Shown here piece after piece: positions 9,555-40,212 of a DNA stretch of 40,212 bases. This DNA comes from Gammaproteobacteria bacterium (GTDB lineage: Bacteria > Pseudomonadota > Gammaproteobacteria > Pseudomonadales > Azotimanducaceae). The first letter of the stretch is position 1. Each line of letters begins with the position of its first letter. The notes under the pieces are model-generated. The model saw only the letters and a list, made by a program, of their open reading frames with translations, had not been told where the DNA came from and made no database searches. Position numbers and translations under genes: made by a program. The stretch spans positions 1 to 40,212 of the forward strand of contig VXPO01000022.1 of NCBI GenBank assembly GCA_009839505.1. Direction: 5' to 3'.

Positions 9555-9971
9555 ATGAAGCAGGGCGTTGATCCAGACGACTTGACGCGTCCGTTCTGGG
9601 AGGCCGCCAACGAGGGTCGGCTGGTGATCCAGTACTGCGCCGACTGCGACCGGTTGCAGCACCCGCCGGGGCGCACATGCCACGCGTGCGGGTCCGGCGA
9701 TACGTTGCAATGGCGGCAGGTGAGCGGCCGGGGCCGCATCTACAACTATGGCGTCGTCCACGACTGTCCTATTCGGCTGCTCCAGGAAGACCAGCCGTTC
9801 AATGCCGCGGTGGTGACCTTGGAGGAGGATCCCGGCATCCAGATGTACTCGCACTTGCCGGGCACGCCCGTGGATGAGGTGCCGGTGGGGGAAGCAGTTG
9901 AGGTCGTGTTCGAAGCAACCGCAAATGGCCAGAAGGTCCCCGAATGGCGCGTGGCGGGCGCGCAGCGATGA
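9555..9971 (+). CDS. DUF35 OB-fold / zinc-ribbon acyl-CoA-associated protein
   Basis: A 138-residue protein. An N-terminal helix (RPFWEAANEGRL) is followed by a zinc ribbon with Cys28, Cys31, Cys42 and Cys45 (CADC...CHAC), then an OB-fold ending near VEVVFEATANG. DUF35 proteins partner thiolase-fold enzymes: ChsH2 binds the Ltp2 retro-aldolase in steroid side-chain breakdown, and others partner SCP2-type thiolases or HMG-CoA synthase. ATG at 9555 follows GGGAAGGGG; an upstream in-frame ATG at 9519 has no such site. Its stop overlaps the thiolase start (ATGA). Confidence 0.9.
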   Translation: MKQGVDPDDLTRPFWEAANEGRLVIQYCADCDRLQHPPGRTCHACGSGDTLQWRQVSGRGRIYNYGVVHDCPIRLLQEDQPFNAAVVTLEEDPGIQMYSHLPGTPVDEVPVGEAVEVVFEATANGQKVPEWRVAGAQR

Positions 9972-11287
9972 GTACGCCCGCGCCGGCCTCCGTGTATCGG
10001 TCTGGAGAGGGCCTAGGTTTGTGGGAGCATCGAGGCAAGGTCGCCGCAGTGGGCATCGGCCATTCCCCGACGGCACGTCGGTGGGACGGCAAGCCCGCAA
10101 ACTCGGTGGGAGGCATCAGCCTGGCCGCCCTTCGAGGTGCGATCGAGGACTCGGGCGTCGATCCGGCGGACGTGGATGGCTTGGTCATGGATCCGACCAC
10201 GACCACCGGTGCCTTCTGGCCCCAAGGCAAACCGCTCCCGTGGGATGCGATCAACGCCTACGAACGCACGGATGACCCGCTAGATGGCATCACGCGTCTC
10301 AGTGCCGAGTGGATGCTCAAGAACATGCCGGAATTGACCGGGGTGCAGTTCACCCGCTACGGCATGGGTTGCATGTCGAGCGCCATCTGCGTTGCCGCCC
10401 AGGCCGTGGGCGACGGGCGCACGCATACCTGCCTGGTGCTGAAGAGCTGGCACAACCTCGAGGGGCGGTACTACCAGGGCGGTGCCAACGCGGGCAATGC
10501 GATTCCGGGATCGAGCGCCATCCGCTCGCTTTGGGGGACACCGGCATGCTTCGGTACGGCGGTTCAGTTCGCCGAGTACTGCCGCAAGTACGGCAAAAGC
10601 CACGACATGATGGCGCCGTTCATCGAGAACTCCCGAAACAACGGGTTGAAGTTCCCGGAGGGCTATTGGGCGCAGCACCGGCCCGAGGAGATCACCCCGG
10701 AGGACTACAAGGCGGCGCGCTGGATCGCCAAGCCCGCCAACCTGTTCGACAACGACATGCCGATCATGGTTTCCGCTGCGTACCTGTTCACCACCGCCGA
10801 ACGTGCGCGCCAGCTCAAGCAGAAACCTGTCTACATTCTCAACCACGCATCGAGCCGAACGCGGCCACGCAGCTTGACGCCTACTCTGGACGAGGTGGAG
10901 GAGGACACTGCGCGAACGGCCCGGAAGATCTACGAAGGTGCCGGCATCACCGCCGCCGACCTGTCGTTCGAAAACATGTACGACGGCTTTGCGTTGTTCC
11001 ACCAGTTCCACATCGAGGGCTTGGGCTACCGGGGCATCAAGTTCGGCGAAGCGCTCGACTTCTACCAGACGGATATCAGCATCGGCGGACCGAACCCCGT
11101 GTCGCCGAGCGGCGGCAACATCGGCTGTGGCCGCAGTCGGTTCTGGATGCACACCGACTGCATCCAGCAGATACAGCGACGGGCGAGCTCACGCCAGGTC
11201 ACGGGCGTCAAGCCGGAAGTCGCGGTGTCGGGTGGGCCGATGCCCCTCGGTGGCAACTTCACCGTCTGGAGTTCGACGCCGGGATGA
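9968..11287 (+). CDS. Thiolase-fold (SCP2/Ltp2-like) acyl-CoA enzyme
   Basis: A 439-residue thiolase-superfamily protein. The nucleophile-loop equivalent is YGMGCMSSAICVA with Cys135. The C-terminal part has EDTARTARKIYEGAGITAADL, ENMYDGFALFHQF and NPVSPSGGNIGCGRSRF, so the classical GHPxGATG motif is replaced. That pattern is typical of SCP2-type or aldolase-type members rather than biosynthetic or degradative thiolases. It begins in an ATGA overlap with the DUF35 gene and ends in an ATGA overlap with the HAD gene, so stoichiometric production with DUF35 is likely. Retro-aldolase, thiolase and simple acyl-CoA binding are all possible. Confidence 0.87.
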   Translation: MSTPAPASVYRSGEGLGLWEHRGKVAAVGIGHSPTARRWDGKPANSVGGISLAALRGAIEDSGVDPADVDGLVMDPTTTTGAFWPQGKPLPWDAINAYERTDDPLDGITRLSAEWMLKNMPELTGVQFTRYGMGCMSSAICVAAQAVGDGRTHTCLVLKSWHNLEGRYYQGGANAGNAIPGSSAIRSLWGTPACFGTAVQFAEYCRKYGKSHDMMAPFIENSRNNGLKFPEGYWAQHRPEEITPEDYKAARWIAKPANLFDNDMPIMVSAAYLFTTAERARQLKQKPVYILNHASSRTRPRSLTPTLDEVEEDTARTARKIYEGAGITAADLSFENMYDGFALFHQFHIEGLGYRGIKFGEALDFYQTDISIGGPNPVSPSGGNIGCGRSRFWMHTDCIQQIQRRASSRQVTGVKPEVAVSGGPMPLGGNFTVWSSTPG

Positions 11288-11643
11288 TCCTCGTCAGCTT
11301 CGACATCGACGGGACCTTGGAGGAGGGCGACCCGCCGGGAATACTCACCATGGACTTCGTCCGCCAGGTCAAGGGTGAGGGGCTCTTGGTTGGCAGTTGC
11401 TCCGACCGCCCGATCAGTGCGCAACGCGCCCTTTGGGCGCGCCACGGTATCGATGTCGACTTCGCCGTCTCGAAACACATGCTGGGCGAAGTCAAGGCGA
11501 GCTTCGACGCCGAGGTGTACTACCACATCGGTGACCGAGAAGATCTGGACAAGCGGCCAGCGGAGCAGGCCGGCTTCCGGTTTCTCTGGCCTCACGAGGC
11601 CGTAGCGATGCCGTGGACTAAGACGGGATCCGTTAGACCCTGA
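11284..11643 (+). CDS. Small HAD-like hydrolase
   Basis: A 119-residue protein starting MILVSFDIDGTLEEGDPPG. The DxDGT motif (Asp7, Asp9) is the phosphorylated-aspartate site of the HAD superfamily; SCSDRP is a motif-II region, and YYHIGDREDLDKRPAEQAGF is the motif-IV acidic region. It has no cap domain. It overlaps the thiolase stop by 4 bases and its own 3' end overlaps the convergent molybdenum hydroxylase gene by 11 bases. A phosphatase is the default guess; the substrate is unknown. Confidence 0.82.
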   Translation: MILVSFDIDGTLEEGDPPGILTMDFVRQVKGEGLLVGSCSDRPISAQRALWARHGIDVDFAVSKHMLGEVKASFDAEVYYHIGDREDLDKRPAEQAGFRFLWPHEAVAMPWTKTGSVRP

Positions 11644-13876
11644 GGTTGTTCTTCGAGACCGGCAACTCCCGGACTCGGATACCGGTCGCCGCGTGGATCG
11701 CGTTCACCAGGGCCGGGGCGGCGGGTGGCGTGCCGGGCTCGCCAGCACCGCCGAGCGGGCCACCACTGCTCACGATCACGGTCTCGACCACGGGCATCTC
11801 GTCCATGCGGAGCATCGGATAATCGTGGAAATTGCTCTGCTTGACGCGTCCGTGCTCGATGCTGATCTCGCCGTGCAGGGCGGCGGTCAGGCCGTAGACG
11901 ATGCCACTTTCCATCTGTGCGGTTAGGCCGTCGGGGTTGACCGCGTAGCCGGCGTCGACGGCACAGACCACGCGTTCGACGCGTAGCGCACCGTCCGAGA
12001 TGGCGACCTCGGCGACCTCGGCGACGATGCTGCCGAAAGACTCGTGCAGAGCGATGCCCCGTCCTCGGCCTTCGCCGAGCGGATGCGTCCAACCGGCCTT
12101 CTCGGCGGCGGCGTCGAGCACCTTGCGGTGCCGCGGCGCATGGTTGAGGAGGCGGCGTCGAAATGCATACGGGTCTTCGTGGGCAAGGTTGGCCAACTCG
12201 TCCACGAACGATTCAGTGAAGAAGGCGTGTTGCGAGTGGTCGACGGCGCGCCATACGCCGAACGGGACGTGGGTGGGGCTCGCCACCGAGGCGATGCGTT
12301 GGTTGTCAATGGCGTACGGGATCCGGGGTGCTTCGGCCGGTTCGTGCTTGTCGACGTAGAGGTTCATCCACACGGTGGGCCGGCCGCTCTGGTCTAGGGC
12401 ACCCCGGAAGCGGCTGGTCACGGCTGGCCGGTAGCGGTCCTGGGCGATGTCCTCCTCGCGGGACCAGACGAGTTTCGTCGGCGCGCCGACCGCTTGCGCA
12501 ATGCGCGCGGCCTGCACCACGTAGTCCTGGACCGATCGCCGTCCAAACGCACCGCCGAGGTAGGCGTTGTGCACGATCACGGCGTCCGGTTCCATGCCGA
12601 GCGCATCGGCCGCGGCGGCGCGTGCGCCCAAGGGATTCTGGGTACCGGTCCAGACTTCGCAGATGCCGTCGTGCAGCCAAACCGTGCAGTTCAAAGGCTC
12701 CATCGGAGCGTGGGCCAGGTACGGAACCCGGTACTCGGCCTCGATCCGGCGGGCGGCGGTGGCGAGCGCCGCGTCGACGTCGCCCCGGTCCACCTCGACG
12801 TCACCGTTCGATTCGATCTCGGCTTGCGCGAGGTCGCGTTCGAACTGCGCGAAGATTGCCGCTTGATCCACCTTGTCTCGACCAACGTTGTCCCACTCGA
12901 TGTCCAGCACCGCCAGCCCTCGGTCGGCATGCCAGTAGCCGTCGGCGACCACGGCCACGAGATCACCGAGATTGACGACCTGTTGGACGCCCGGCTGGCG
13001 CATCGTCTCCGCGTCGTCTATCACGGCGACCTTGCCGCCGAAGACGGGCGCCGAGCGGACCGTGGCGACCTTCATGCCGGGTAGTTGGGCGTCGATGCCG
13101 AACATCGCGCTGCCGTCGGTCTTGCCGGGGATGTCGTTGCGCGGGACGGACTTGCCGATCAGGTTGAACGCCTCTGCGTTCTTGAGCTTGGGTTTCGAGG
13201 ACGGGGCGAACTGGGCTGCGGCCGCCGCGAATGATGCGTAGGTGTCACTGCGCCCACTGGGCGCGTGGGAGATGCGGCTCTGGGCGAGCACCAGTTCCCG
13301 CACCGGGACGTTCCAGGCCGCCGATGCCGCCTTCGCGAGCATCTCTCGCGCCGCTGCGCCTGCCACACGCATGCCATGTGCCCCGGTCGCGCGTACGCTC
13401 AAGCTGCCACCGGTGATCTGCAAGTCCATCGCCTGGGTGAGCTTGAGAAGGATCCCGTCCACCGTGCCCACCAAGGCCCTGGGAATCTGGGCGTCGCCGA
13501 ACAGGAACCCGCGGGGCAGGGCGTAGTTGGCGTATTCGTCGTGCGCCGGTGCCTCCATGACGTCGACGAGATTCCAGTCGGCGTCCAGTTCGTCGGCGAG
13601 CATCTGCGCCAGCGCCGTGTGCACGCCCTGGCCCATCTCGGCATGGGGAACGATGGCGACGACCCGGTTGTCGGGCGCGATCTTGACCCAGATGTTGAGC
13701 AGTGACTCGCCTTGGTTGGCGACCAACTCCTTGACGCGCGGGGCACGATGGCCGGGCCGGATGGCGACGCCGACGATGAGGGCGCCCCCGGTGACTACGC
13801 CTGCGGTGATCAGGCCGCGGCGCGTCCACTTGCCGAGGCGCGATTTTTTAGCCCGTGGTGCCGGATCGTCAGCCAT
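11633..13876 (-). CDS. Molybdenum hydroxylase large subunit, IorB type, with Tat signal
   Basis: A 747-residue molybdopterin-binding subunit of the xanthine dehydrogenase/isoquinoline 1-oxidoreductase family, which hydroxylates N-heterocycles or aldehydes. The N-terminus has [21 protein letters not shown], a twin-arginine signal with a hydrophobic core, so the enzyme is exported. Cofactor-domain blocks include [42 protein letters not shown] and the C-terminal [24 protein letters not shown]. That last block contains the GEPG sequence with the catalytic glutamate. ATG at 13876 overlaps the small-subunit stop by 8 bases. A separate FAD subunit is absent, as expected for the IorAB type. Confidence 0.92.
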
Positions 13877-27800: not shown

Positions 27801-28880
27801 ATGTGCACAAGGGCATCTGCCTTGACCAGCGCAGAGTCGAGAGGTGTTCCTACCTCGCCGTTTCCCGACGGCTGGTATTTCGTTGCAAGCCGGGATGCCA
27901 TACGCAAGCAGACCCTGATTGAGCGGAAATGGCTCGGGCAAGAAATCGTGGCGTGGTGCGACGACAAGGGTGCGGTATGCGTGGCCGATGCCTACTGTCC
28001 GCATCTGGGGTCGCACCTCGGCCCGAAGACAGGTGGCTGTGTGCGCAATGGGCGGCTGGTCTGCCCGTTCCACGGCTTCGAGTACGACGCCACGGGCCAG
28101 TGCGTCGCCACGCCAAATGCCCCGCCGCCGCGCAATGCAAAGTTGAGGCGGTTTGAGACCCAGGACATCAATGGTTTGGTCTTCGGCTGGTGGAGTTCCG
28201 TTGGCCAGCCGCCGTATTTCAGACTACCCCTCGATAGGCGTGACGAGAAAGGCTGGACCGCCGTGGGTCTCCGGAAATTCCGCCTAACCACCCACCCGGA
28301 GCACACGGCCGAGAACTCCGTCGATCTTGCCCACTTTTCGCACATCCACGGGTACTTCGACGTTCATCAGGTCGGTTCCGTGACGGTCGATGGTGCGCAT
28401 CTGATGAGCGCGTTCGCCTTCAAGCGCGAACGCTCCGTTCTGGGCATGAAGTTCCTATTCGACGTGTCTGTCGTTACGAACGTGTACGGTATGGGCTACT
28501 CGTCCGTGGACATAGCGGAGCACACGATTCCGTTCAAGTCCCGGTTCTGGGTTCTTGCAACGCCATTGGACGGTACCTACATGGATCTGGTTTTGGCGAA
28601 TCAGACGGAGGAGACCGATCATGTGCGACGGGCTGTCCTCGGTCTTAGCTTTGTCCCTAAGCGTACGAGGGCGAAGTTGATGAACTACATGCTGCTCGAA
28701 GGCCAGGTGAAGGACGTTGAACAGGACGTTCCCATTTGGAATAGACGGATCTTCCGTCCGAAGCCCGTACTGAATCGCGAGGACGGAAAAATCATGCTGT
28801 ACCGGCGCTACTGCAGCCAGTTCTATCCGGAGAACGCGAATATCGCGGGGCGGACGCGCAGAGTACTCGCCTCGTTGTAG
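27801..28880 (+). CDS. Rieske non-heme iron oxygenase, terminal oxygenase component (KshA/DAF-36-like)
   Basis: A 359-residue oxygenase. The Rieske [2Fe-2S] site is Cys66-Pro-His68 and Cys88-Pro-Phe-His91. The catalytic iron and bridging site reads ENSVDLAHFSHIHGY with Asn172, Asp175, His178 and His183, all intact. The ENxxDxxHF..(I)H form is shared with steroid-acting members (3-ketosteroid 9-alpha-hydroxylase A, DAF-36/Neverland, and the bacterial C-4 sterol demethylase SdmA). It also occurs in other single-component-type oxygenases, so substrate is inference. ATG at 27801 has no clear ribosome site. No reductase or ferredoxin gene is adjacent. The TolC gene follows after 14 bases. Confidence 0.88.
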   Translation: MCTRASALTSAESRGVPTSPFPDGWYFVASRDAIRKQTLIERKWLGQEIVAWCDDKGAVCVADAYCPHLGSHLGPKTGGCVRNGRLVCPFHGFEYDATGQCVATPNAPPPRNAKLRRFETQDINGLVFGWWSSVGQPPYFRLPLDRRDEKGWTAVGLRKFRLTTHPEHTAENSVDLAHFSHIHGYFDVHQVGSVTVDGAHLMSAFAFKRERSVLGMKFLFDVSVVTNVYGMGYSSVDIAEHTIPFKSRFWVLATPLDGTYMDLVLANQTEETDHVRRAVLGLSFVPKRTRAKLMNYMLLEGQVKDVEQDVPIWNRRIFRPKPVLNREDGKIMLYRRYCSQFYPENANIAGRTRRVLASL

Positions 28881-28894
28881 GTGGTTTCCTGCCG

Positions 28895-30499
28895 ATGTCC
28901 GTTCAACCGATCTTGAGAGCCGCAGGGGGGCTCGTGCTTCGGTCGAAGGGTGCTATCGGCGTTGTCGTCTTGGCGACGGGTGCGGGCGCGATCGGAATGT
29001 CCGCGGGATGCTCCGTGCTGTCCTCCCTGACGACCGGCTGGCTAGGGCAAGATCGGGATGACTCGGGGATACGCGAGTCGGTTGGATTGGACAAGCCCTT
29101 CCCGTGGTGGGAGTCGTTCGACGACCCCGTGCTGAACCGTGTCGTCGAGGCGACACTGGAGTCCAACTTCGATCTCGCGACGGCTGTTGCGAGGGTGGAA
29201 CAGGCTCGCGCCAGGGCGCGGGTCGCCACTGCTGCGCGCTTACCGATGATTCGGGCGTCCCTCGGTGCCGTCGGGTTTGACGTGCCGACCAACGCGGGCC
29301 TCGGGGCCCAGTTGGAGCAGCTTGGGTTGGGCCCCGACGCGTTCGCGGCGTTCGGCGTTTCGCTGCCGGATCGACTTGACCAGACCACCTATTCGGCAGG
29401 GGTCGACGTCGCCTATGAAGTCGACTTCTGGGGCCGCGACCGGAACGCGGCGCTTTCAGCGGGCGCGCAGCGCGAAGCCTCCGAAGCGGACTATCGCGCG
29501 GCCCGGATGGGGGTTGTCACCGAGACGGTGGCGACGTACGTCGAGATTGTCGATCTGCGACGTCAGCGCGGCTTCGCCGGGGAGACGGTCGAGATTCTCA
29601 GCGAGTGGACAACGCTTGCGGAGGAACGCTACGACCGCGGCGTTGGGGACATTCAGGATGTCTACGCGCTCCGGCGGAATCTCGCGGATGCCGAGGCGTC
29701 GTTGCCCGGGGTGAATGAGCGCCTGGCCGACGCCGAGGGAAGGCTCAAGGTCCTGTTGGGAGGACGGGAACAACCGGGCCTCCTTGGTACGCTACCCGAC
29801 ACGATGCCAATTTCGACGATGGCGCACGCCCCGACCGGTGTGCCGGCCGAAGCGCTGGCGCAGCGCCCCGATGTCGCCGCGGCACGGCAACGATTGGCAG
29901 GTGCCCGGTTCGCCTTGGGTGCTCGTCGGGCCGCGTTGCTGCCCTCGTTGTCGCTTTCCGGAACAATCGGGTTGCAGAGTCCGGACACCGCCGACTGGTT
30001 CGACCCGGACCAGTGGTTCCAGAACCTGAGTTCGAATCTGCTCGCCCCCGTGTTCCAGGGCGGCCGGTTGCGCGGCGATGTGGCGCTTGCTGAAGCCCAG
30101 CTGGACGAAGCCACGGCAACCTACGGCCACGCCGTGGCGAGGGCCGCCGTGGAGGTCGAAGCGGCTTTGGCCCGGTTGGAATCCAACCGGCACCGCATGG
30201 CTCTGGTGACCTCTTTCGCGGAAGAAGCGCGAGCGGAGGCAACGCTGCAGGAGCAGCGCTACGCCTCCGGCATTGGCGACTATATGACGTTTCTCGCCGC
30301 ATCGCAGATGAACGTTGGCGCCAAGGCTGCGCATGCCGCCGCGGAGCGCGATTTGGCGTATGCGCGGCTTGCGCTGCACCGTGCCTTGGGCGGTGCTTGG
30401 TCGTCAAACGCAGAAGGACTGGACGCCGCCGCCAACAGCGACGTTGACGAGCCTCCGGTGTTCGCAGGTGAACGCGCAGAAGGAGACCGGGGTGCGTAA
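28895..30499 (+). CDS. TolC/NodT-family outer-membrane efflux lipoprotein
   Basis: A 534-residue outer-membrane factor. A hydrophobic leader ends in the lipobox MSAGC with Cys39 as the lipidation site. Two OEP repeats follow: the first has NFDLATAVARVEQARARARVA, YSAGVDVAYEVDFWGR and VEILSEWTTLAEERYDRGVG; the second begins near LAQRPDVAAARQRLAGARFALG. It forms the trimeric exit duct of a tripartite efflux system. It overlaps the adaptor gene by 8 bases. No inner-membrane pump lies next to it. Confidence 0.93.
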   Translation: MSVQPILRAAGGLVLRSKGAIGVVVLATGAGAIGMSAGCSVLSSLTTGWLGQDRDDSGIRESVGLDKPFPWWESFDDPVLNRVVEATLESNFDLATAVARVEQARARARVATAARLPMIRASLGAVGFDVPTNAGLGAQLEQLGLGPDAFAAFGVSLPDRLDQTTYSAGVDVAYEVDFWGRDRNAALSAGAQREASEADYRAARMGVVTETVATYVEIVDLRRQRGFAGETVEILSEWTTLAEERYDRGVGDIQDVYALRRNLADAEASLPGVNERLADAEGRLKVLLGGREQPGLLGTLPDTMPISTMAHAPTGVPAEALAQRPDVAAARQRLAGARFALGARRAALLPSLSLSGTIGLQSPDTADWFDPDQWFQNLSSNLLAPVFQGGRLRGDVALAEAQLDEATATYGHAVARAAVEVEAALARLESNRHRMALVTSFAEEARAEATLQEQRYASGIGDYMTFLAASQMNVGAKAAHAAAERDLAYARLALHRALGGAWSSNAEGLDAAANSDVDEPPVFAGERAEGDRGA

Positions 30500-31697
30500 G
30501 AGGACGGGCTATCTGGTCGCCATCGCCGTGATTGCCGGTGCCGTGGGTGTGGCCACGCTGATGGTGTCGCTTGCCCCGGAGCCGGAGACGCACGAGCCGC
30601 CCTCGCAGGTTCCCTACGTCAACACCGCGCGTATCGTCGCCGGCACCGGGCCGATCCCAGTGCGAGGCGCGGGGACGGTGCGTCCGAGCGCGGAGGTCGA
30701 CATCGCGCCGCAGGTGGGTGGTCGGGTGGCTTGGGTGGACAAGGATTTCGTCAGCGGTCGTCGCGTCGAGGCCGGGCAGACCCTGTTCCGTCTCGAAGAG
30801 ACGGACTACGAGTTCGGCGTACGCGAGGCCGAAGCCTCCCTGGCCGTCCGGGAGGTAGCACTCCTCGAAGCTCGCGAGGACGCGGCGATCGCGCAGGCCC
30901 AGTACAAGCGCTACGCCGAGAGGCAAGGCGAGGACGCGTCGACCAAGCCGAATCCGCTAACGCTGCACGTCCCCCAGTTGAAGGCGGCGGAGGCCGCCTT
31001 GGCTCGGGAGGAAGCCGCCTTGGCGCAGGCCAAACTGGCATTGTCGCGCACCTCGGTCATGGCGCCGTTCGACGGCGTCGTACACGACGAGTCGGTGGAC
31101 GTCGGACAGCTGCTGGCGCCGGGCCAGTCGGTGGGCAGGTTGTTCTCCTCGGATGCGGTGGAGGTGGTGGTACCTCTTTCCGATGCGGACGCGGCGTTGA
31201 TTCCCCGGCTTTGGCAGTACGAAGCGGAAAGCCAGCGCGTCGTCGCCGTCGTGTTCGCCGAGTACGGCGGTGTCGCCTATGCTTGGCGGGGATACGTTGA
31301 CCGGGCGGACGCATCCCTCGATGCCGAGACCCGCACCATCGACGTGATTGTCCATGTGCCGGACCCCTTTGCGCCGGGTGCTTCCACGGTGTCGGCAGCG
31401 ACTCTGGACACGACCCCGCCGCTCCTCGTGGGCAAATTCGTGGAGGTGGCCATCGAGGGGTTGGCGCCGGCCGACTACTTCAAGGTGCGCCGTGCCGCGT
31501 TGCAGGCGGACGATGAGATCTGGATGGTTCGCGACGACGGCACGGTGCGGATAGTGCCGGTTCGAGTCCTGCAACGTATCGACGACGAGGTCTTTGTGAC
31601 GGGCGAGCTCGAAGACGGCCAGTTGGCCGTCACGGGCGGCATCCGGTTCGCGACAGACGGCATGTCGGTCCGTGTCGGAGAAGCCCGAAGACGGTAG
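30492..31697 (+). CDS. RND-type periplasmic adaptor (HlyD/AcrA family)
   Basis: A 401-residue membrane-fusion protein. GTG at 30492 has AAGGAG upstream. A signal or anchor segment (about 6-25) is followed by the lipoyl half-motifs VRPSAEVDIAPQVGGRVAWV and TSVMAPFDGVVHDESVDVGQLLAPG. Between these is a helical hairpin (EASLAVREVALLEAREDAAIA ... QLKAAEAALAREEAALAQAK). A beta-barrel and a membrane-proximal domain follow. It bridges an RND pump to the TolC-type channel encoded by the overlapping upstream gene. Confidence 0.93.
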   Translation: MRKRTGYLVAIAVIAGAVGVATLMVSLAPEPETHEPPSQVPYVNTARIVAGTGPIPVRGAGTVRPSAEVDIAPQVGGRVAWVDKDFVSGRRVEAGQTLFRLEETDYEFGVREAEASLAVREVALLEAREDAAIAQAQYKRYAERQGEDASTKPNPLTLHVPQLKAAEAALAREEAALAQAKLALSRTSVMAPFDGVVHDESVDVGQLLAPGQSVGRLFSSDAVEVVVPLSDADAALIPRLWQYEAESQRVVAVVFAEYGGVAYAWRGYVDRADASLDAETRTIDVIVHVPDPFAPGASTVSAATLDTTPPLLVGKFVEVAIEGLAPADYFKVRRAALQADDEIWMVRDDGTVRIVPVRVLQRIDDEVFVTGELEDGQLAVTGGIRFATDGMSVRVGEARRR

Positions 31698-31968: not shown

Positions 31969-34900
31969 TCACATCTCGGATCGTCGAACTCTAGAGGAGG
32001 CCGTGGTTGGGGACTGGCTTGGCAAACCACGCGCAGATGTGGATGGGAGGTAGTCCGCTACCGTGATAGTGACGGCAGTGGAGCAATTGTTCTCGACTTC
32101 GCCCTCATTCGCCACATCGTCCGCGCAAGCGCCGTAGTGGTAGGTCCCGGCGTCACTCGGGGCGGTGAGATCGATCGACTGGTTGCTGGACGCCGAAGCG
32201 GCGATCTCATCTACGGCGTCCGTACCCACTTCCTCGTCGCGGCCGGTGATCGTGGTGTTGGACGAGCGGTAATATCGCAGCGTGGTGTCTGATGCGGCAC
32301 CGTCTCCCTGGTTGCGGACCACGACGCTCAGCGTGAACGTGCCTCCCGGCGCTGGAGTCTCGTCGCTGACCGAGGGCGATTCAGCCACCAGATCCGGCTC
32401 GTCGCCGCCGGCCACCGTGATTGCCACCGCGGCGGAGCAGTTGTTTCCGACATTGCTCTCGTCGGTCACGCTGTCAACGCAGGCTCCGTAATGGTAAGTG
32501 CCTGCATCTTCAGACGCTGTCAACCCGATCGAGTGATCGCTTGTCCGAGACGCCGCAATGGCGGCTATCGCAGTCGATCCAACCTCCGCATCGTTGCTGA
32601 CAATCAAGGAATCTACAGAACGGTAGAACCGCAGCGTTGTGACCCCGGATTCGTCGTCGCCCCTGTTGTGGACCGTTGCGCTCAGCGTGAATGTTGCGCC
32701 GGACTCTGGATTCGCGTTGTCGACTGATGCATCTACCACCAGGTCAGGACCGGCGGTCGCGTCATCGGGAGGGGCACCGCGTTCAAAGGTCAGGATGCCG
32801 TCGCCGGGCGTGGCGAGATACACGTATCGATCGTCGGAGCTCACCGCGAAACCCGTGGGAGAATCGAATTCGGGTATCGGCACGCCATTGAAGCGGTCCG
32901 ACTGAACTGGGCTCAGGTGATCCGTTCCGCCAAGCTCGCCGACTTCAGGATCCCAATGCGCGGTGTATGCCACACCCGGACATAAGACGTCGACAACGGG
33001 ATCTTCGCCCCGGGTGTCAGCGAACCGGCACCGGTTCGTTCGTGCCACGGTAGTCCCCGACCAGATCTGCCAGAACTGCGGCAACTCTGACAGCCGCTCA
33101 GGGTTCAATGGGTCCTCAAGCGAAAAGAGGATCGCCCGGGCGCCGTATCTGTCGAATACGAACAGGTACGCGTCGTCATCGGTAATCGCCAGGGGCCGCC
33201 GTGGTGGGCCCGAGGCAACCCCGTAGTGGATTAGTGTCGATTCAAAGTCCGTTTGGGTGAGTTCGCCGGATTCCGCGTTTCTCTCGAATACCAGCAGTCG
33301 ATTGGACACTACGTACAGATGCTCTCCGTCGCCGGAGAGTACTGCCGCGTGGACTCGATTGCCAACATCGGTTTCTTCCACAAACCGCAGTCCCCCACTT
33401 TCCTCGAAATCGAAGTGCTCCAGGTGATTCGAGCTGACCCGGTACAGGCTCGAACCATCGGCAGCCATCAGCAAATGGATGGCACACCTGGCCGGATCCG
33501 CCGTCGCCGACAGCTCACCGAGATCCTCGAGTTCCGTGTCGTTTCCGTCCGGGGCGAACGAGCGCCATGTTCCGCAGTTGTCGGCGAGCAGCCTATCTCG
33601 TGATGAGTCCCACAACAGCGAACTGGGCGCAAGATCGAAGTCGGTCTCGACCAACTGTAGGTAGTTGAGCTCGCCGGTCGCTGGGTCTGGCTCGAAAATC
33701 TGCAGGCCGATACCTGAGGCCAGGTAAAGCGCATCGCCACTGTCGGGACTCGCCAGGTCGCCGGGGGAGCGTATCGCGACCGGATTGCCGTTCCCGTCCC
33801 GATCGCCGTCTGCCAGACGGCCCACGTAGCGCAGCCAGCGCGGATCGTCAGCTTCGTCCCAGCGCAGTGTGAACTCGCCGCCGCGTTTACCACTGCTGAC
33901 CCCTAGCGAGATCGTGTAGCGGACACCCTCCCGGGCCTTGAAAAGGACTTCGCGCTCGTTTCGTTGCCACCGGTTGGACGCCACGGTTTCCAGACCACCG
34001 AACCCGTCGGCAGCGTCGCGATGCACGCCCAGCACCCACGAACCAACCCCATCCACCGCAAAGCGGACCCAGCCGGTCGCAGGGGCTTCGTAGGTCCACC
34101 ACAGGGTCGACCGGCCGAGAATGTCGCTTCGCTCTCCCCTGGCCCCCGTGGCGAACGCGTTCGAGCCTGAGACTGACCCGGACGCACCCGAGATCATCGC
34201 GGCGTTGGCAACCTCGTCATTGTCGGGTGTGGCGCCCCAGACCAGCATTCCGGAGGCCCGAAACAGTTCGTACGCTGCCGGATGCCCGTTTCCGAGCCCT
34301 GCCGCAATCCAATACCGCTCTCCGTCCGTAGCGTCCAACAGGAACTCGAAAGGTGCCCCGGGTCCGGTCTGCGCAGCCAGTTCGAGATCCGAACCCCTGA
34401 ACATGGTGATGCGCAGCTTGGGATAGATTGGCACCGCCTCGCCCAAACCCTCAATGCGCCACGTGTAGAGATTGTCCTCCGGGGCTTCCCACAACCACCA
34501 CTTGGTCCTCACGCCAGTCTCAGAAGGTTCATCCGGTTCGACGGTGGAATGAGCGTCGACGTGAACACGGTGCTCTGATGAAGTCGCGCTCGTCATTGGC
34601 TCCGCATCTTCGAACCGGTCGTTCCCGCGCCAGGCACCTTCGCTTTGGGTATACCAAGAGAGCCTGTACGAGCCCCGGGGAGCATCGAGGTCGGTTTCGG
34701 CAACAGCGATGCGGTACTCGCGCCCGCCACGGGCCACGAGACGGGCGCTCGATCCTGGCCAGTTGGAGACTAGGCGCAAAGCCGAAACGTCGTCCCCTTC
34801 GAAGACGAGGACCTTTTTCGGATTTGGGACCCCGAATAGCCAGAGCCCGTCGCGGGGAGCCGTCCATCGGAACCACGTCGTCGCCGTCAGTCCACCCAGC

Positions 34901-37900
34901 GATTCGCCCGGTTGCAGGGTCGCGCCGGCACTGCTGCCATCGGTGCCACCCGATTCGCCATCCAGTGCGACGGCGTCCGCGAAATCGTCGTTCGCGGCGC
35001 GGCCACCCGGTGACCAACTGAGGTCCACAACGGCTCCGCGGGAGGAACCGCTTACGCGTATGTGGTACTTCTGTCCCTCTTCGGCGAAAAACGAAACCTG
35101 CCATAGCGAGGAGGCCACCACCTCAAGACTGACCAATTCATCGCCTTGGAACACCTGGACAAGGTCGTAGCGCGCGATGTCGTCACGTGCGCGATAGTCC
35201 CGTGCAAGAACGGGGACCTTGAAGCGGTACGGTCCGTCGCCAGGGGCCGTCCACGTGTACCAGACGGAACGCATGGGACGGCCTCGCGACGAGTCGATAT
35301 CCGGTTCCCCCGGCTCCGGAGTGGCGTGCAGCAGATCCAGCGCTTCAGAGCCTTCTTCGCCTTCTATAGCCTTCGCCGCAGCGAAGTCGTCGTTGGCGGG
35401 TCTCTCGATTACCGGAACATCCGCGGACCCGACGCCTACCGACACCGATCCCGCACGGCCGTTCCAGGCACTCGCGGTGAAATGCAGCGCGGTAGCCTCG
35501 CTGCCTGGATCCGAATCAATGGAAACGCCAAGATTGACCTTCCGCTCCTCTCCCGCAGCAATTTCGCCGATCGAGATCCACGTCCCAAGACTGATCGGTT
35601 TGGCTTCCCGGGCATATCCCCCCGGAACCGGGGTCAGGGATTCATCCTCCGGGCTCGACTCCAGACCATCTTCGCGCACTACCGTCGCGCGTTTTACCGT
35701 GACAAGCTCATTGCAGGTCGACTGTCCCTTGGTCCGGCAGTCGAGCTGCAATCTAGCTCCTGCCGCGACATACGCATCCGCCGTTACCGTAAGGCGAAGT
35801 TCGTGCTCGCCGTCACCCTCGATCCGTTCCTTGTCCGCTTCAACCGACAACGTGGGCGTGGACGTTCCTCGTATCATGGTCCATGCAACAGCAGCCCGCG
35901 GGGCGGCGGTGTACACGCGATGGGCGAGCACTTTCGTACGGTAGGTGCCGGCCTCCGGGTCCCTGACGATGATCCACTCGGCGCTATCCACGCGCGAACG
36001 GGACGAGTGCTCGCCGCACGCCTCGATCTCGCAGTCAGAATCCTGGTCGAGCCAAAGATCAAGATCGTTCAGGACGGTACTTGCCACGGCATCCGCAGGC
36101 GGTTCGTCCCACGTCATCACCACGTCCAGTCGACTCGTCCCCTCCGGCACCTCTATGTCGTGGTAGGCGTACTCGCCGTCTTCCAGCTCTGTTGTCGCAC
36201 TTCCACTCCCCCACCCTTCCGACCCCTCACGGCTAAGCGCAGCGGTACGGGCAGAAACCTTGCCCATCCCGTACAGCGCCTGTAGTGATCCCGGCCCGGA
36301 AGTGTTGTCCGATGGGAACGCGGCATCGTCGGCAAGCCACGGATCGGGCCTGATGGCACTTGCCATCAGCCGGGCCCTGGTGAGCGCGGGCTGTTCCTTG
36401 TGCGCAGGTACGGCATCCATGAGCAGAGCCGCGATGCCTGCAACTGCAGGCGAGGACATGCTCGTCCCACTGAGGCTGCGGTAACCTCCGCGGCTTCCTC
36501 CGCCCCGTGCGGAGTACACGCGCACGCCGGTGCCGACAACATTCGGGGCCAGCCTGCCGTCCGCGGTAGGCCCATGGCTGCTGAACGAAGCGATTCCACC
36601 ATCATCTTTGGCAGCACCGACCGACAGCGAGTTTTTCGCCGCACCGAAGTCAGAAAACGAGACCGGGCCGAAGTTCGACTGCGCTACGACGTAGAGCTGC
36701 CTATGGTTCCAGACCGTAGAGTCGAGTTTACGGGCACTCAGGTCGCGCCCCTCGAAAAACGGTGAGGATTCGGAGAGGCTCATGTTGACGATCAGGGGCT
36801 TGACCTGCTCGGACATTCGGCCCGCCTCGCTGCAGCCGGACGCGGTGGCGAGATAGTCCATTCCCAGCTGCACGCTATCCCCGAGACCCACACCGAAAGA
36901 ATCCAGCACCTTGGCGAAGCGAATGTGGCGCACGCCGGGTGCCATGCCCGCAAAGCGCGGCTCGGCAAACCCGTTGCCGACGGCCGTGCCGGTGACATGT
37001 GTTCCGTGGCCGGCGGCGTCGATCCACAGGTCATCGGCCTGGTTCTGCGGCCCCTCGCCGCCCAAGCGAGAGTTGTCCGCGAAGTTGGCGCCGCAAATGC
37101 TGGCGCGATGAGTCCCGATGTCCAGATGGTTGATGTTGAGCCCCGTGTCCATCACGGCGATTGGCACCGAGGTGCCGGAGAAACCAGAAAAGACTCCCGG
37201 CTCGCCACCAACCGCCCGAACGGCATCCGCGCCCATGGCAGGAACCGCAGTGTCATGGCTGGCTCTAATCAGGGGAATGGGCTCAACCGCGAGCACGAAA
37301 TCGGCTGCCGCCAGCGCTTCGATCACAGCGGGACTCGCATTCGCCCGATAAACCCGCAGTACTGGGTCATAGCCGCCGACAACCGCGCCTAGATTCTCCA
37401 TGCTACGGCGCCAGCGACCGTCTGGATCGTCCGGCAACAACGTCACGTAGACAGGTGTCTGGCCGGAGGGATCGCTGATCGAATCGTCGACGAACGCCGC
37501 AAGCTTCGCTTCCCGTGGGGTCGTGCCGATGCCGTCGACCACATTAAGGGAGGCAATCATCTCCAGTTGGGCTGCATCGCGAGGGAGGCGTGCTCGGATC
37601 ATGCGTCCCGAGGACCCGAGAATCTCCGCTCTGGTGCCTTCGAGAGCTTGGGCGAGTTCGGCGCGCGTCGAATCCGCTGCGAGGCGGATCCAACCGAAAG
37701 ACCAGTCGCGCCCTGCGGACTCCGCCTGCCGCGTCAGGTCGTGAACGGAATTGATCGGATCCAGCCAAGCCGGACGCGCCGCCTCCACAGGGTCTTCCAC
37801 GCTCTGTTGTCTGATTGGGGCCTTGAGCATGTCGCCGAAGTGATCGACGAACGAATAGCCATCCGGCGGCGTGGGAGCCGGGTCGGCGCCCGTGTCCACG

Positions 37901-38139
37901 CTGATTGCTGCGATCTGGTTACTTCGTGCGCCTTGCACGACCGGAGGCGGCAATACGCCCTGGCTCTCACCGACGATTCGTGCTGCTCCGGCAGCGAAGA
38001 TTCGCTCCGGCGACGCTGCTGCGGATGGGGGCGTGTCGCCTCCAGAGGGCAACATTGCAATCCAGACTAGAGAACTCAACGCGACCAGCGAGGCGATCAA
38101 GATTCCCAGCCGCGCCCAATGACATCTGTTGGAGCTCAC
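31969..38139 (-). CDS. Giant secreted subtilisin-like (S8) protease with PPC-like, propeller and CARDB domains
   Basis: About 2056 residues. GTG at 38139 has GGAGGG five bases upstream, and a signal or anchor follows at about 7-30. After a pro-region comes the S8 domain: Asp331 (AVMDTGLN), His378 (GHGTHVTG), oxyanion Asn489 (AQSNFGP) and Ser560 (GTSMSSPAVAG), all intact. A jelly-roll-like domain follows to about 730. Four repeats with the pattern NDDF...(W)xxW.AP (near 913, 1046, 1170, 1303) resemble pre-peptidase C-terminal-like modules. A propeller-like stretch runs from about 1430 to 1790. Two tandem CARDB-like domains (about 1798-1905 and 1915-2030) each end in NNCS.AV.ITVA. The final 27 residues are unlike any of these. 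There is no known C-terminal sorting tag. Confidence 0.92.
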   Translation of the reverse strand: MSSNRCHWARLGILIASLVALSSLVWIAMLPSGGDTPPSAAASPERIFAAGAARIVGESQGVLPPPVVQGARSNQIAAISVDTGADPAPTPPDGYSFVDHFGDMLKAPIRQQSVEDPVEAARPAWLDPINSVHDLTRQAESAGRDWSFGWIRLAADSTRAELAQALEGTRAEILGSSGRMIRARLPRDAAQLEMIASLNVVDGIGTTPREAKLAAFVDDSISDPSGQTPVYVTLLPDDPDGRWRRSMENLGAVVGGYDPVLRVYRANASPAVIEALAAADFVLAVEPIPLIRASHDTAVPAMGADAVRAVGGEPGVFSGFSGTSVPIAVMDTGLNINHLDIGTHRASICGANFADNSRLGGEGPQNQADDLWIDAAGHGTHVTGTAVGNGFAEPRFAGMAPGVRHIRFAKVLDSFGVGLGDSVQLGMDYLATASGCSEAGRMSEQVKPLIVNMSLSESSPFFEGRDLSARKLDSTVWNHRQLYVVAQSNFGPVSFSDFGAAKNSLSVGAAKDDGGIASFSSHGPTADGRLAPNVVGTGVRVYSARGGGSRGGYRSLSGTSMSSPAVAGIAALLMDAVPAHKEQPALTRARLMASAIRPDPWLADDAAFPSDNTSGPGSLQALYGMGKVSARTAALSREGSEGWGSGSATTELEDGEYAYHDIEVPEGTSRLDVVMTWDEPPADAVASTVLNDLDLWLDQDSDCEIEACGEHSSRSRVDSAEWIIVRDPEAGTYRTKVLAHRVYTAAPRAAVAWTMIRGTSTPTLSVEADKERIEGDGEHELRLTVTADAYVAAGARLQLDCRTKGQSTCNELVTVKRATVVREDGLESSPEDESLTPVPGGYAREAKPISLGTWISIGEIAAGEERKVNLGVSIDSDPGSEATALHFTASAWNGRAGSVSVGVGSADVPVIERPANDDFAAAKAIEGEEGSEALDLLHATPEPGEPDIDSSRGRPMRSVWYTWTAPGDGPYRFKVPVLARDYRARDDIARYDLVQVFQGDELVSLEVVASSLWQVSFFAEEGQKYHIRVSGSSRGAVVDLSWSPGGRAANDDFADAVALDGESGGTDGSSAGATLQPGESLGGLTATTWFRWTAPRDGLWLFGVPNPKKVLVFEGDDVSALRLVSNWPGSSARLVARGGREYRIAVAETDLDAPRGSYRLSWYTQSEGAWRGNDRFEDAEPMTSATSSEHRVHVDAHSTVEPDEPSETGVRTKWWLWEAPEDNLYTWRIEGLGEAVPIYPKLRITMFRGSDLELAAQTGPGAPFEFLLDATDGERYWIAAGLGNGHPAAYELFRASGMLVWGATPDNDEVANAAMISGASGSVSGSNAFATGARGERSDILGRSTLWWTYEAPATGWVRFAVDGVGSWVLGVHRDAADGFGGLETVASNRWQRNEREVLFKAREGVRYTISLGVSSGKRGGEFTLRWDEADDPRWLRYVGRLADGDRDGNGNPVAIRSPGDLASPDSGDALYLASGIGLQIFEPDPATGELNYLQLVETDFDLAPSSLLWDSSRDRLLADNCGTWRSFAPDGNDTELEDLGELSATADPARCAIHLLMAADGSSLYRVSSNHLEHFDFEESGGLRFVEETDVGNRVHAAVLSGDGEHLYVVSNRLLVFERNAESGELTQTDFESTLIHYGVASGPPRRPLAITDDDAYLFVFDRYGARAILFSLEDPLNPERLSELPQFWQIWSGTTVARTNRCRFADTRGEDPVVDVLCPGVAYTAHWDPEVGELGGTDHLSPVQSDRFNGVPIPEFDSPTGFAVSSDDRYVYLATPGDGILTFERGAPPDDATAGPDLVVDASVDNANPESGATFTLSATVHNRGDDESGVTTLRFYRSVDSLIVSNDAEVGSTAIAAIAASRTSDHSIGLTASEDAGTYHYGACVDSVTDESNVGNNCSAAVAITVAGGDEPDLVAESPSVSDETPAPGGTFTLSVVVRNQGDGAASDTTLRYYRSSNTTITGRDEEVGTDAVDEIAASASSNQSIDLTAPSDAGTYHYGACADDVANEGEVENNCSTAVTITVADYLPSTSARGLPSQSPTTASSRVRRSEM

Positions 38140-38259
38140 GATCACCCTCCACGTCCTTCGTCCCCGAATGCACCGACGACCGAGACATGGACCACCGTGT
38201 CGCGGACCATCCGTGTCGCGACCTTTCAGAACTGTAGGGACGCGCACGCGGTTTCGCGA

Positions 38260-38693: not shown

Positions 38694-39710
38694 CTACGCC
38701 GGTTTGCGGGCTAGAAAACAGTAGAGCGGCGTGAATACTCCCGACTTGCCGCCAGCGACGTATGCATCGGCCGTTCGATCCATCAACTGAACGACTGCGG
38801 TCGAACCTTTCGGGAAGTAGCGGAACGCCTCGGCCAGCCTAAGTGCGCCGATCATCGCCTTGCGCCCCAAGGGCGTTCGGCGAAACGCGCTGCGCAATGT
38901 CCCGCGCCGTCCCTGCATCGGCTGGTACCACGGTGTGCTCGGGCCATCCTGGACATCCCGATCAGCTGCCTCGACGACCTCGAATCCGACCGCTTCAAGC
39001 GCACGGTTCACTTCGGCAAACGTGGCGATGTCGCGCAGCGCGATCCCTAGCATGAGATCTTTCTTGATGGCTTCGTGACGACTGTCGTGGGGATCGAAGT
39101 TGTCGGTCATGCACATTTCCTGGCCCCAGAACAATGCTCCCGGCTTGAGTACGCGGTAGATTTCCGCGAACGCTTGTCGCTTGTCTGGCGCATGGCATGT
39201 TGACTCGATCGCGTACCCAGCATCGAAAGTGCAGGCGTCGATGGCGCTCATGTCCATGAAGTTGCACTTCATGTATTCGGCCATGTGGTCGAGCCCCGCT
39301 TCGACGTTCTTCCGCCTGGCATTGTCGAGTTGCTGTGCGTTGTTGTTGAGACAGAAGACCTTCGCACCGGACTCGCGCGCCACCCGGCGCATCGGCCCCC
39401 CGACGCCGCAGCCGATGTCGACGATCGTCATGCCCTCGCGCAGTTCCAAGCGGTCGATCATCAGCCGCTGGTGGCGGATGATCGAGTCCTCCAGGCTCTC
39501 TCCGGGCTTCAACGGCGCGAAATGCAGCGACTCGGTCCATCCGAACTGCATGAACTCGCTGCACAGGTCGTAGTAGTCGTTGACCGTCTCCGTGTGGTCG
39601 TAGTCGCCACTTTTGTTTCTGTCGAACCACGTGCCGTAGCGGGCCACGCGGCCCTTCACGTTCGAGCCGCGGTGCGCGCGCCAAAGGTTTCTGGACAGGT
39701 TAGTCAGCAT
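38694..39710 (-). CDS. Sterol C-24 methyltransferase homologue (Erg6/SMT family)
   Basis: A 338-residue SAM-dependent methyltransferase. SAM motif I is VDIGCGVGGP (97-106). SMT-specific blocks are all present: YYDLCSEFMQFGWTESLHFA (46-65), matching the sterol-binding Region I of Erg6; GESLEDSIIRH (70-80); LNNNAQQ (121-127); YAIESTCHAP (166-175); EIYRVLKPG (183-191); PWYQPM (260-265); and the C-terminal VAGGKSGVFTPLYCFLARKP. In eukaryotes these enzymes methylate C-24 of the sterol side chain. It is somewhat shorter than yeast Erg6 (about 383 residues). ATG at 39710 lies 19 bases after the stop of the RND gene, so co-transcription is likely. Confidence 0.9.
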   Translation of the reverse strand: MLTNLSRNLWRAHRGSNVKGRVARYGTWFDRNKSGDYDHTETVNDYYDLCSEFMQFGWTESLHFAPLKPGESLEDSIIRHQRLMIDRLELREGMTIVDIGCGVGGPMRRVARESGAKVFCLNNNAQQLDNARRKNVEAGLDHMAEYMKCNFMDMSAIDACTFDAGYAIESTCHAPDKRQAFAEIYRVLKPGALFWGQEMCMTDNFDPHDSRHEAIKKDLMLGIALRDIATFAEVNRALEAVGFEVVEAADRDVQDGPSTPWYQPMQGRRGTLRSAFRRTPLGRKAMIGALRLAEAFRYFPKGSTAVVQLMDRTADAYVAGGKSGVFTPLYCFLARKPA

Positions 39711-39729: not shown

Positions 39730-40212
39730 CTATGCGGAGGTCGTTGCCGCAGGCTCCGGAGTCTGATCAGGAGCGCGAATCAACCCTAGGCGTATCGAGT
39801 ACAGCGCCGGGATGAGCACCATCAGGATGGCTGTCGTGATCATGATGCCGAAACCCAGGGACGCGGCAAAGGGGCGCAGGTACTGTGCCTGAATGGCCGT
39901 TTCGAGGATGAGAGGCATGAAGCCCAGGAATGTCGTCACGGAGGTCAGCATGATCGGTCTGAAACGGCCTTTGGCGCCCTCAATGATTGCGGTCCGTACG
40001 GGTGTACCGTCGCGAACCCGCCGATCGATGGAATCGATCATGACCAGCGAATCGTTCACCACGACGCCGCTTAGGCCCAGGATGCCCAGGATGGCCGTGG
40101 TCGTGAAGGTAATTCCCAATATGAGGTGGCCCAGAATCACGCCGACGATGCCGAACGGGATCGCCGCCATGACGATGAACGGCTTGGTGTAGGACCGAAG
40201 CGGAATCGCCAA
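39730..40212 (-). CDS. RND (AcrB/HAE-type) transporter, C-terminal part only
   Basis: The last 160 residues of a larger gene whose 5' end lies beyond the window. They include GLSGVVVNDSLVMIDSIDRR, the loop EGAKGRFRPIMLTSVTTFLGFMPLI, and the final helices FAASLGFGIMITTAILMVLIPALYS. This is the conserved C-terminal half of the RND pump membrane domain. The pump would work with an adaptor and a TolC-type channel; a pair is encoded at 28895-31697 on the other strand. It is directly upstream of the sterol methyltransferase homologue. Confidence 0.93.
   Translation of the reverse strand: MAIPLRSYTKPFIVMAAIPFGIVGVILGHLILGITFTTTAILGILGLSGVVVNDSLVMIDSIDRRVRDGTPVRTAIIEGAKGRFRPIMLTSVTTFLGFMPLILETAIQAQYLRPFAASLGFGIMITTAILMVLIPALYSIRLGLIRAPDQTPEPAATTSA

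Follow-up and report, generated by a model that had tools for sequence, protein, structure and literature searches.

The window, the whole stretch of DNA that was analysed (40212 bases), is an entire contig, and therefore, the RND pump gene upstream of the methyltransferase gene is truncated at its end. The methyltransferase gene has an ATG start, and its open reading frame has exactly the coordinates given in the initial annotation. The following features were found in the window, on a further contig of the same genome and in the close relative L002:

Window 9555-11287, plus strand: ChsH2-type OB-fold protein and a thiolase-like, lipid-transfer-protein-like gene, recalling steroid side-chain breakdown
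Window 27822..28880, plus strand: Rieske oxygenase with a KshA_C domain (3-ketosteroid 9alpha-hydroxylase type)
Window 28895..30499, plus strand: TolC-type outer membrane efflux protein (OEP 148 bits), which close relatives also have in this neighbourhood
Window 30393..31697, plus strand: HlyD-type membrane fusion protein, start codon uncertain
Window 31969-38145, minus strand: subtilase of 2058 aa with CARDB repeats, between the membrane fusion gene and the methyltransferase gene
Window 38694..39710, minus strand: methyltransferase of the sterol methyltransferase (SMT) superfamily, Met81 subfamily, 338 aa
Window 39730..40212, minus strand: last 160 aa of an AcrB-type RND pump that is truncated at the contig end, with its stop 19 bases before the SMT start
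Contig G000:C102 (L126), 11230-13242, plus strand: GPP34-P450 fusion
End of contig G000:C102, directly after the GPP34-P450 gene: matching N-terminal part (aa 1-447) of an RND pump
L002, 2751-4766, plus strand: GPP34-P450 fusion
L002, 4781-8011: whole RND homologue (ACR_tran 510.6 bits)

Because the order P450-RND-SMT is unbroken in L002 and L004, the corresponding operon was probably split here by the contig break; G000:C102 and the window were kept as separate pieces. The genes for the Rieske, outer membrane and membrane fusion proteins (27822-31697, plus strand) also adjoin the SMT gene in L002 and L004. In close relatives, the membrane fusion protein probably works together with the RND pump. 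At the place that matches the subtilase, no such gene was called in L002 and L004.

The methyltransferase matched the Pfam families Methyltransf_11 (62.4 bits, cut-off 21.2) and, behind this class I SAM methyltransferase domain, the C-terminal domain Sterol_MT_C (61.4 bits, cut-off 21.7), the two domains that define the SMT superfamily. It was 36% identical over 306 aa to a yeast Erg6 sequence. The pairwise dN/dS values were 0.08-0.15 between the window gene and five close relatives and 0.12-0.17 among these five. The Pfam scores, the identity to Erg6 and the dN/dS values therefore indicate that the gene is real and maintained, and that its product, judged from its sequence, is a member of the SMT superfamily. 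The proposal of the initial annotation that the protein is a homologue of Erg6/SMT was thus upheld as regards the superfamily, by the Sterol_MT_C domain as well as by the joining of 83 subfamily sequences to the canonical SMTs in the tree described below. The C-terminal block VAGGKS-FTP, which it had also named, was recovered as well. Placement among the cyclopropane-type methyltransferases, an outcome that it had regarded as contrary to its proposal, was rejected: although the Pfam family CMAS passed its cut-off (54.6 bits, cut-off 27), Sterol_MT_C was present, and the NCBIfam models for cyclopropane synthases fell far short (45.9 versus a cut-off of 650, and 36.5 versus 400). The Pfam family UbiE also scored above its cut-off (34.2 bits, cut-off 20.1). 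The structure model had a mean pLDDT of 79.8. Sequence and fold searches of the PDB led to class I methyltransferases such as RebM, MitM, TleD and geranyl diphosphate methyltransferase, and the solved structures compared included no true SMT; the sole entry named '24-sterol C-methyltransferase', 6f5z, gave 36 bits, over the SAM domain.

Homologues were collected by a pattern scan of one genome per species in 84,980 species. This yielded 112 relatives, 80 of which were listed (61-94% identical, most of them near full length). For the analysis of single positions, 84 sequences were aligned, namely the window protein, the 80 listed loci (of 112) and three from genomes of the same order. Among the signatures of C-24 SMTs, the SAM motif DVGCGVGGP (VDIGCGVGGP in the window protein) and the Region III motif YAIEATCHAP (YAIESTCHAP, as the initial annotation had stated) were both present. 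In contrast, the sterol-binding Region I, which had been described as present, was altered. Y81EYGWG86, in the yeast Erg6 numbering printed in PMC6997595, is replaced by MQFGWT (residues 54-59 of the window protein), and the SFHF of Erg6 by SLHF. The aromatic residues of Region I are described as required for C-24 methylation in PMC6997595, which refers to the carbocation chemistry, and also in PMC5711494.

Position 81 was Met and position 89 was Leu in all 84 sequences, replacing Tyr81 and Phe89, and Glu82 was retained in only five and lost in 79. Five of five canonical bacterial SMTs, which came from the same loci or from the same genus, kept Tyr81, Glu82 and Phe89. The aromatic character of Region I was just partly lost, because position 83 was Phe, Tyr or Trp in 81 of 84 sequences and Trp85 was invariant, as were His90, Phe91 and Glu195 (84/84 each). 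Since the part of Region I that is held to drive C-24 chemistry is replaced, the C-24 site becomes doubtful, and the protein was filed under the SMT superfamily and not as a C-24 SMT. The initial annotation had thus recognised a real SMT relative but put its motif match too high: the other signature blocks stand, but the methylation site does not stand unqualified. The enzyme may still act like a C-24 SMT.

A quick maximum-likelihood tree placed the 83 distinct subfamily sequences in one group (SH-aLRT 100) on a long stem that joined the canonical SMTs, which were represented by five bacterial sequences and one eukaryotic sequence; the tree carries a warning of long branches meeting. The phylogeny suggested at the outset supports the Met81 subfamily, but not its deeper position. 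The alignment excluded seven loci as duplicates of the window and of its nearest relatives, and the tree excluded L019, which was nevertheless counted among the 80 loci and 84 sequences. The SMT proteins of L019 and L011 are identical, and the respective bins are called Chloroflexota and Rhodospirillales, probably a binning error. At two loci, a second, canonical SMT with an unaltered YEYGWG was observed less than 8 kb from the Met81-type SMT (L026, 15223-16245, minus strand; L022, 847-1851, minus strand), and therefore, both types can co-occur.

According to the record titles, the Met81 subfamily spans six phyla among the 80 listed loci (of 112): Pseudomonadota (28), Chloroflexota (27), Actinomycetota (7), Gemmatimonadota (6), Acidobacteriota (5) and Thermodesulfobacteriota (2, the NCBI rank for Dadabacteria), and five further loci belong to unranked bins. 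When the tips of the tree were labelled by group (phylum, window, same order or unranked), the labels required 19 changes versus a minimum of nine, which fits some horizontal transfer, misbinning adding to the count. Among 274 sampled Gammaproteobacteria, including the genome of the window, a Sterol_MT_C match occurred in this genome only. Twenty of the listed loci come from bins with SB06xx names and eight from MPM/MPN bins, all of which we take to be from sponges, the latter presumably from A. aerophoba metagenomes. No source was assigned to 26 of the 80. The remaining bin names, RHO, IRC, COS or APA (26 of 80), correspond, as judged from the names, to Rhopaloeides, Ircinia, Coscinoderma and Aplysina, which are sponges in PMC8163846. 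The subfamily genomes thus seem to be mostly sponge-associated, and from its nearest relatives, the window bacterium is probably a sponge symbiont. The view that bacterial SMTs are known only from scattered lineages is outdated, as SMTs of sponge symbionts were expressed and active (PMC10070321) and are enriched in Ircinia MAGs (PMC9531527).

Next to a host or dietary sterol, the initial annotation had considered a self-made sterol and proposed a search for squalene epoxidase and oxidosqualene cyclase, the two enzymes that characterise de novo sterol producers. Neither was detected: the genome (4.70 Mb, 181 contigs, 96% complete) had no match to PF08491 (squalene epoxidase) and none to PF13243 (squalene-hopene/oxidosqualene cyclase). 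Strong cyclase matches in the subfamily genomes fell into two classes, which we assigned from scores and frame lengths, leaving the weak or cut-off matches of G097, G384, G398, G401 and G404 unclassed. The first was of the squalene-hopene-cyclase type (about 377-498 bits), the second of the oxidosqualene-cyclase type (about 176-198 bits), with frames of more than 1100 aa that are probably fused to an epoxidase part, as is described for some cyclases in PMC10070321. DCTAE was found in 3/3 fetched sequences of the oxidosqualene-cyclase type, and DxDDTA, by a pattern of our own, in 10/17 of the squalene-hopene-cyclase type. An oxidosqualene-cyclase-type match was present in 14/50 plus 4/30, i.e. 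18 of the 80 listed subfamily genomes (of 112), and was lacking in 62, incomplete MAGs included. As the genome of the window shows neither enzyme and these 62 show no match of this cyclase type, a self-made sterol is unlikely here, and de novo synthesis was rejected as the main reading.

The seven genomes nearest by SMT identity among the listed relatives (L002-L007 and L013) also gave no cyclase match, including L007/G063, which is a single chromosome (SMT 83% identical). The next nearest, L009 (G065, 81%) and L008 (G064, 77%), contain an oxidosqualene-cyclase-type gene, and therefore, the cyclase was lost or gained recently, and sterol synthesis does not preclude the presence of the enzyme. 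Five loci are on records with chromosome titles: L007 and L051 had no cyclase, L042 and L059 had only the hopene type, and L021 had the oxidosqualene type. Neither the window nor any of the 80 listed loci had the cyclase part of an oxidosqualene cyclase near the SMT gene (up to 8 kb on each side, less at contig ends). One match of the cyclase search near an SMT gene, in L012, covers just residues 1-208 of the fetched frame, which precede the cyclase, and looks epoxidase-like by eye.

The gene neighbourhoods were quantified by tblastn with bit thresholds that we set, and not from codon-scored gene calls, because the latter gave no genes for a few AT-richer loci (e.g. L010, L077 and L080). Of the 80 listed loci, 51 extended 7.9 kb or more to each side of the SMT gene. 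Near this gene, 36 of the 51 had a GPP34-P450 fusion, 36 had an RND pump (15 of the AcrB type, 21 of the MMPL type), 30 had a Rieske oxygenase (a Rieske homologue in 38 of all 80 listed relatives) and 17 had an amine-oxidase-like flavoprotein. At 12 of the 51 loci, including all four such loci of Actinomycetota, no member of the five module families was detected. As a weak background, 20 cyclase loci of 3.7-4.0 kb gave no P450, RND or Rieske match and two flavoprotein matches. The distance to the SMT gene was less than 500 bases for the RND gene in 42 of 50 locus-pump pairs and for the P450 gene in 26 of 50 loci. The pump type differed between groups: among the well-flanked loci, it was MMPL in 17 of 20 Chloroflexota and AcrB in none, AcrB in three of three Gemmatimonadota, and in 17 Pseudomonadota AcrB in 11 and MMPL in three. 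Since two different pump families occupy the same place, transport is suggested to be part of the function. In summary, the SMT gene belongs to a recurrent module whose other members are a GPP34-P450 fusion, a KshA-like Rieske oxygenase, an RND pump and, in some loci, a flavoprotein.

The fusion protein of 671 aa combines GPP34 (120 bits) and p450 (110 bits), the oxygenase Rieske and KshA_C domains, and the MMPL-type pump matched MMPL, Patched and the sterol-sensing domain (all Pfam). By sequence, the solved structures nearest to the P450 were CYP51 and cholesterol 24-hydroxylase (best E 9e-19), and the one nearest to the oxygenase was 3-ketosteroid 9alpha-hydroxylase (best E 3e-23). These resemblances to steroid enzymes are weak, which counts against the assignment of the module to sterols. 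No NCBIfam equivalog reached its cut-off with the module proteins (SdmA, a Rieske-type enzyme, 32.5 of 600; BstA 45.3 of 1400). The structure model of the GPP34-P450 fusion had a mean pLDDT of only 66.1. The fusion was detected in 46 of 50 subfamily genomes, in one of them split over two contigs; the search alignment holds sequences from seven of the 50, which match by construction, and three full-length matches contain a stop codon. The other four genomes had one GPP34 part only, one P450 part only and, in two cases, nothing. Matches to GPP34 only, of about 210 residues, were also observed in several of the same genomes. In 58 relatives, the fusion was present in 12/12 genomes with an SMT of either kind versus 4/46 without (p 2e-9, Fisher test); when only the nine subfamily genomes were counted, p was 1e-6, and within the own genus, the fusion was present in 10/10 genomes with an SMT versus 3/6 without (p 0.04). 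All three tests ignore kinship and shared lifestyle. In the open-access literature searched, no fitting report of a pairing of GPP34 with a cytochrome P450 was found.

We propose, with confidence that is evenly balanced, that the enzyme is a SAM-dependent C-methyltransferase, most likely acting on a sterol, in a tailoring and transport module that uses sterols from the surroundings. A substrate sterol from the host, from food or from neighbouring symbionts with a cyclase would reach the cell envelope, and the SMT would move one or more methyl groups from SAM onto it. The methylated product would then be oxidised by the GPP34-P450 fusion, perhaps tethered to the membrane via GPP34, and by the KshA-like Rieske oxygenase, and the RND pump would carry the substrate or the product across the envelope. 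Observed are the family membership, the altered Region I, the gene neighbourhood and co-occurrence, and the lack of cyclase and epoxidase matches in this genome. That the substrate is a sterol, that it comes from outside, in which order the steps follow, which way the pump transports and which carbon is methylated (C-24, C-28, C-26 or C-4) are inferred.

Two alternatives concern only the site of methylation and are compatible with a role in the module. An ordinary C-24 (or C-24/C-28) SMT that tolerates Met81 and receives delta-24 or delta-24(28) sterols (desmosterol, 24-methylenecholesterol) from the sponge is a credible, although minority, possibility. It is favoured by the intact signature blocks and the four invariant residues listed above, and by the activities described in PMC10070321: desmosterol was methylated by eight of 10 SMTs from sponge symbionts, and the side chain was alkylated by 12 of 14 SMTs from the environment. 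The A. aerophoba metagenomes used in PMC10070321 are the likely source of eight of the 80 listed loci (MPM/MPN bins). The loss of Tyr81 from all sequences and of Glu82 from nearly all argues against it, as an aromatic Region I is described as required (PMC6997595). Methylation at another site, either at C-26 (aplysterol or 26-methylstigmastane type) or at C-4 of a 3-oxo sterol, is likewise a minority possibility. The nematode 4-SMT, which uses 3-oxo sterols, is also devoid of the aromatic Region I signature (PMC6997595), the best solved relatives of the KshA-type oxygenase act on 3-ketosteroids, and the enzymes of C-26 methylation are called undiscovered in PMC10070321. However, aromatic residues are kept at position 83 in 81 of 84 sequences and at position 85 in all.

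The other alternatives change the substrate or its origin. SMT-like triterpene methyltransferases occur in the alga Botryococcus, and the enzyme could likewise act on squalene or another linear isoprenoid, which we consider improbable. Squalene is a possible internal substrate because the genome encodes one squalene/phytoene-synthase-family protein (TIGR01559 119 bits, cut-off 287), in the absence of a cyclase. PF00494 was matched in 45 of 50 subfamily genomes, and the predicted fold also matches prenyl diphosphate C-methyltransferases. Yet this fold match is generic for the methyltransferase class, five of the 50 genomes lack PF00494, including the 4.3 Mb genome G096, and the module partners resemble steroid enzymes. 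In the genome of the window, a squalene-synthase-like gene adjoins a cytochrome P450 gene (L127, 1384-3870), yet no squalene cyclase accompanies it. Degradation of host or algal sterols, started by the Rieske oxygenase and the P450 with the methyltransferase as an accessory, is very unlikely. The KshA-type oxygenase and the gene pair at 9555-11287, which resembles steroid side-chain enzymes, would fit, but the NCBIfam thiolase models stayed far below their cut-offs at that pair, methylation is not known to be a step of sterol catabolism, and the extradiol dioxygenase model TIGR03213, which we take to be HsaC-like, gave at best 31 bits in the own genome (cut-off 366). This candidate was therefore set aside as weak. 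One close relative, G062, contains a strong extradiol dioxygenase match (L128, G062:C34:27913-28755) with 308 bits to the same model. Least probable of all is that the bacterium makes its own sterols and that both genes were lost from the assembly. The genome is incomplete and fragmented, and L009 and L008 are among the 18 listed genomes with an oxidosqualene-cyclase-type gene, but both enzymes would have to be missing, and the seven nearest genomes, one of them a single chromosome, are free of any cyclase match as well.

The tailoring of sterols from the surroundings, if true, would mean that bacteria edit host sterols, beyond just making their own. Side-chain-alkylated steranes are among the fossil evidence used for early animals and algae, and it is debated where unusual sponge sterols come from. 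The Met81 subfamily and its partners are a concrete enzyme set in which to seek missing reactions, e.g. C-26 methylation. In a bolder form, which is improbable and speculative, the Met81 SMT would have a new regiochemistry (e.g. C-26) and would have spread horizontally among sponge symbionts of several phyla with the GPP34-P450 fusion, the Rieske oxygenase and the RND pump, so that symbionts without the pathway turn host sterol into unusual sponge sterols and return them. Neither the altered Region I motif nor the P450-Rieske-RND module was found in the open-access literature searched or in the consulted passages of PMC10070321 and PMC9531527.

Bacterial SMTs of sponge symbionts as such are already published. 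Brown et al. 2023 (PMC10070321) demonstrated sterol methylation in vitro for bacterial SMTs of sponge symbionts and of environmental MAGs, and three of these enzymes went as far as 24-isopropyl sterols; a Chlamydiae MAG with an SMT had no other sterol synthesis genes. Like the window protein, the enzymes are of the SMT superfamily and come from uncultured bacteria, including demosponge symbionts. Unlike in the window, 13 of the 24 SMTs share a cluster or a MAG with an oxidosqualene cyclase. The main text mentions neither P450 nor Rieske, although the clusters hold sdmA. Kelly et al. 2022 (PMC9531527) described ERG6 annotations (SMT1/ERG6) and ERG24-CYP51-ERG7 clusters in Ircinia symbionts. The enrichment of SMT1/ERG6 in sponge-symbiont MAGs and the presence of steroid genes in many phyla with signs of horizontal transfer resemble the present case; the clusters differ, with SMT or FDFT1 at the flank of ERG24-CYP51-ERG7, whereas the cyclase part of an oxidosqualene cyclase lies near the SMT gene in 0 of the 80 listed loci here. 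With yeast Erg6 and other eukaryotic C-24 SMTs, the window protein shares the domain layout, the SAM motif, YAIE-TCHAP and the C-terminal blocks, and it differs from Erg6 by the change of Y81EYGWG86 to MQFGWT, F89 to L, A196 to S and G250 to A, the last two of which also occur in some canonical bacterial sequences. The nematode sterol C4-methyltransferase (PMC6997595) is likewise an SMT relative without the aromatic Region I signature; it is given there as 21% identical to Erg6, versus 36% for the window protein, and of the aromatic loss that marks the nematode type, the window subfamily shows that of Tyr81, with residue 83 (81/84) and Trp85 (84/84) kept.
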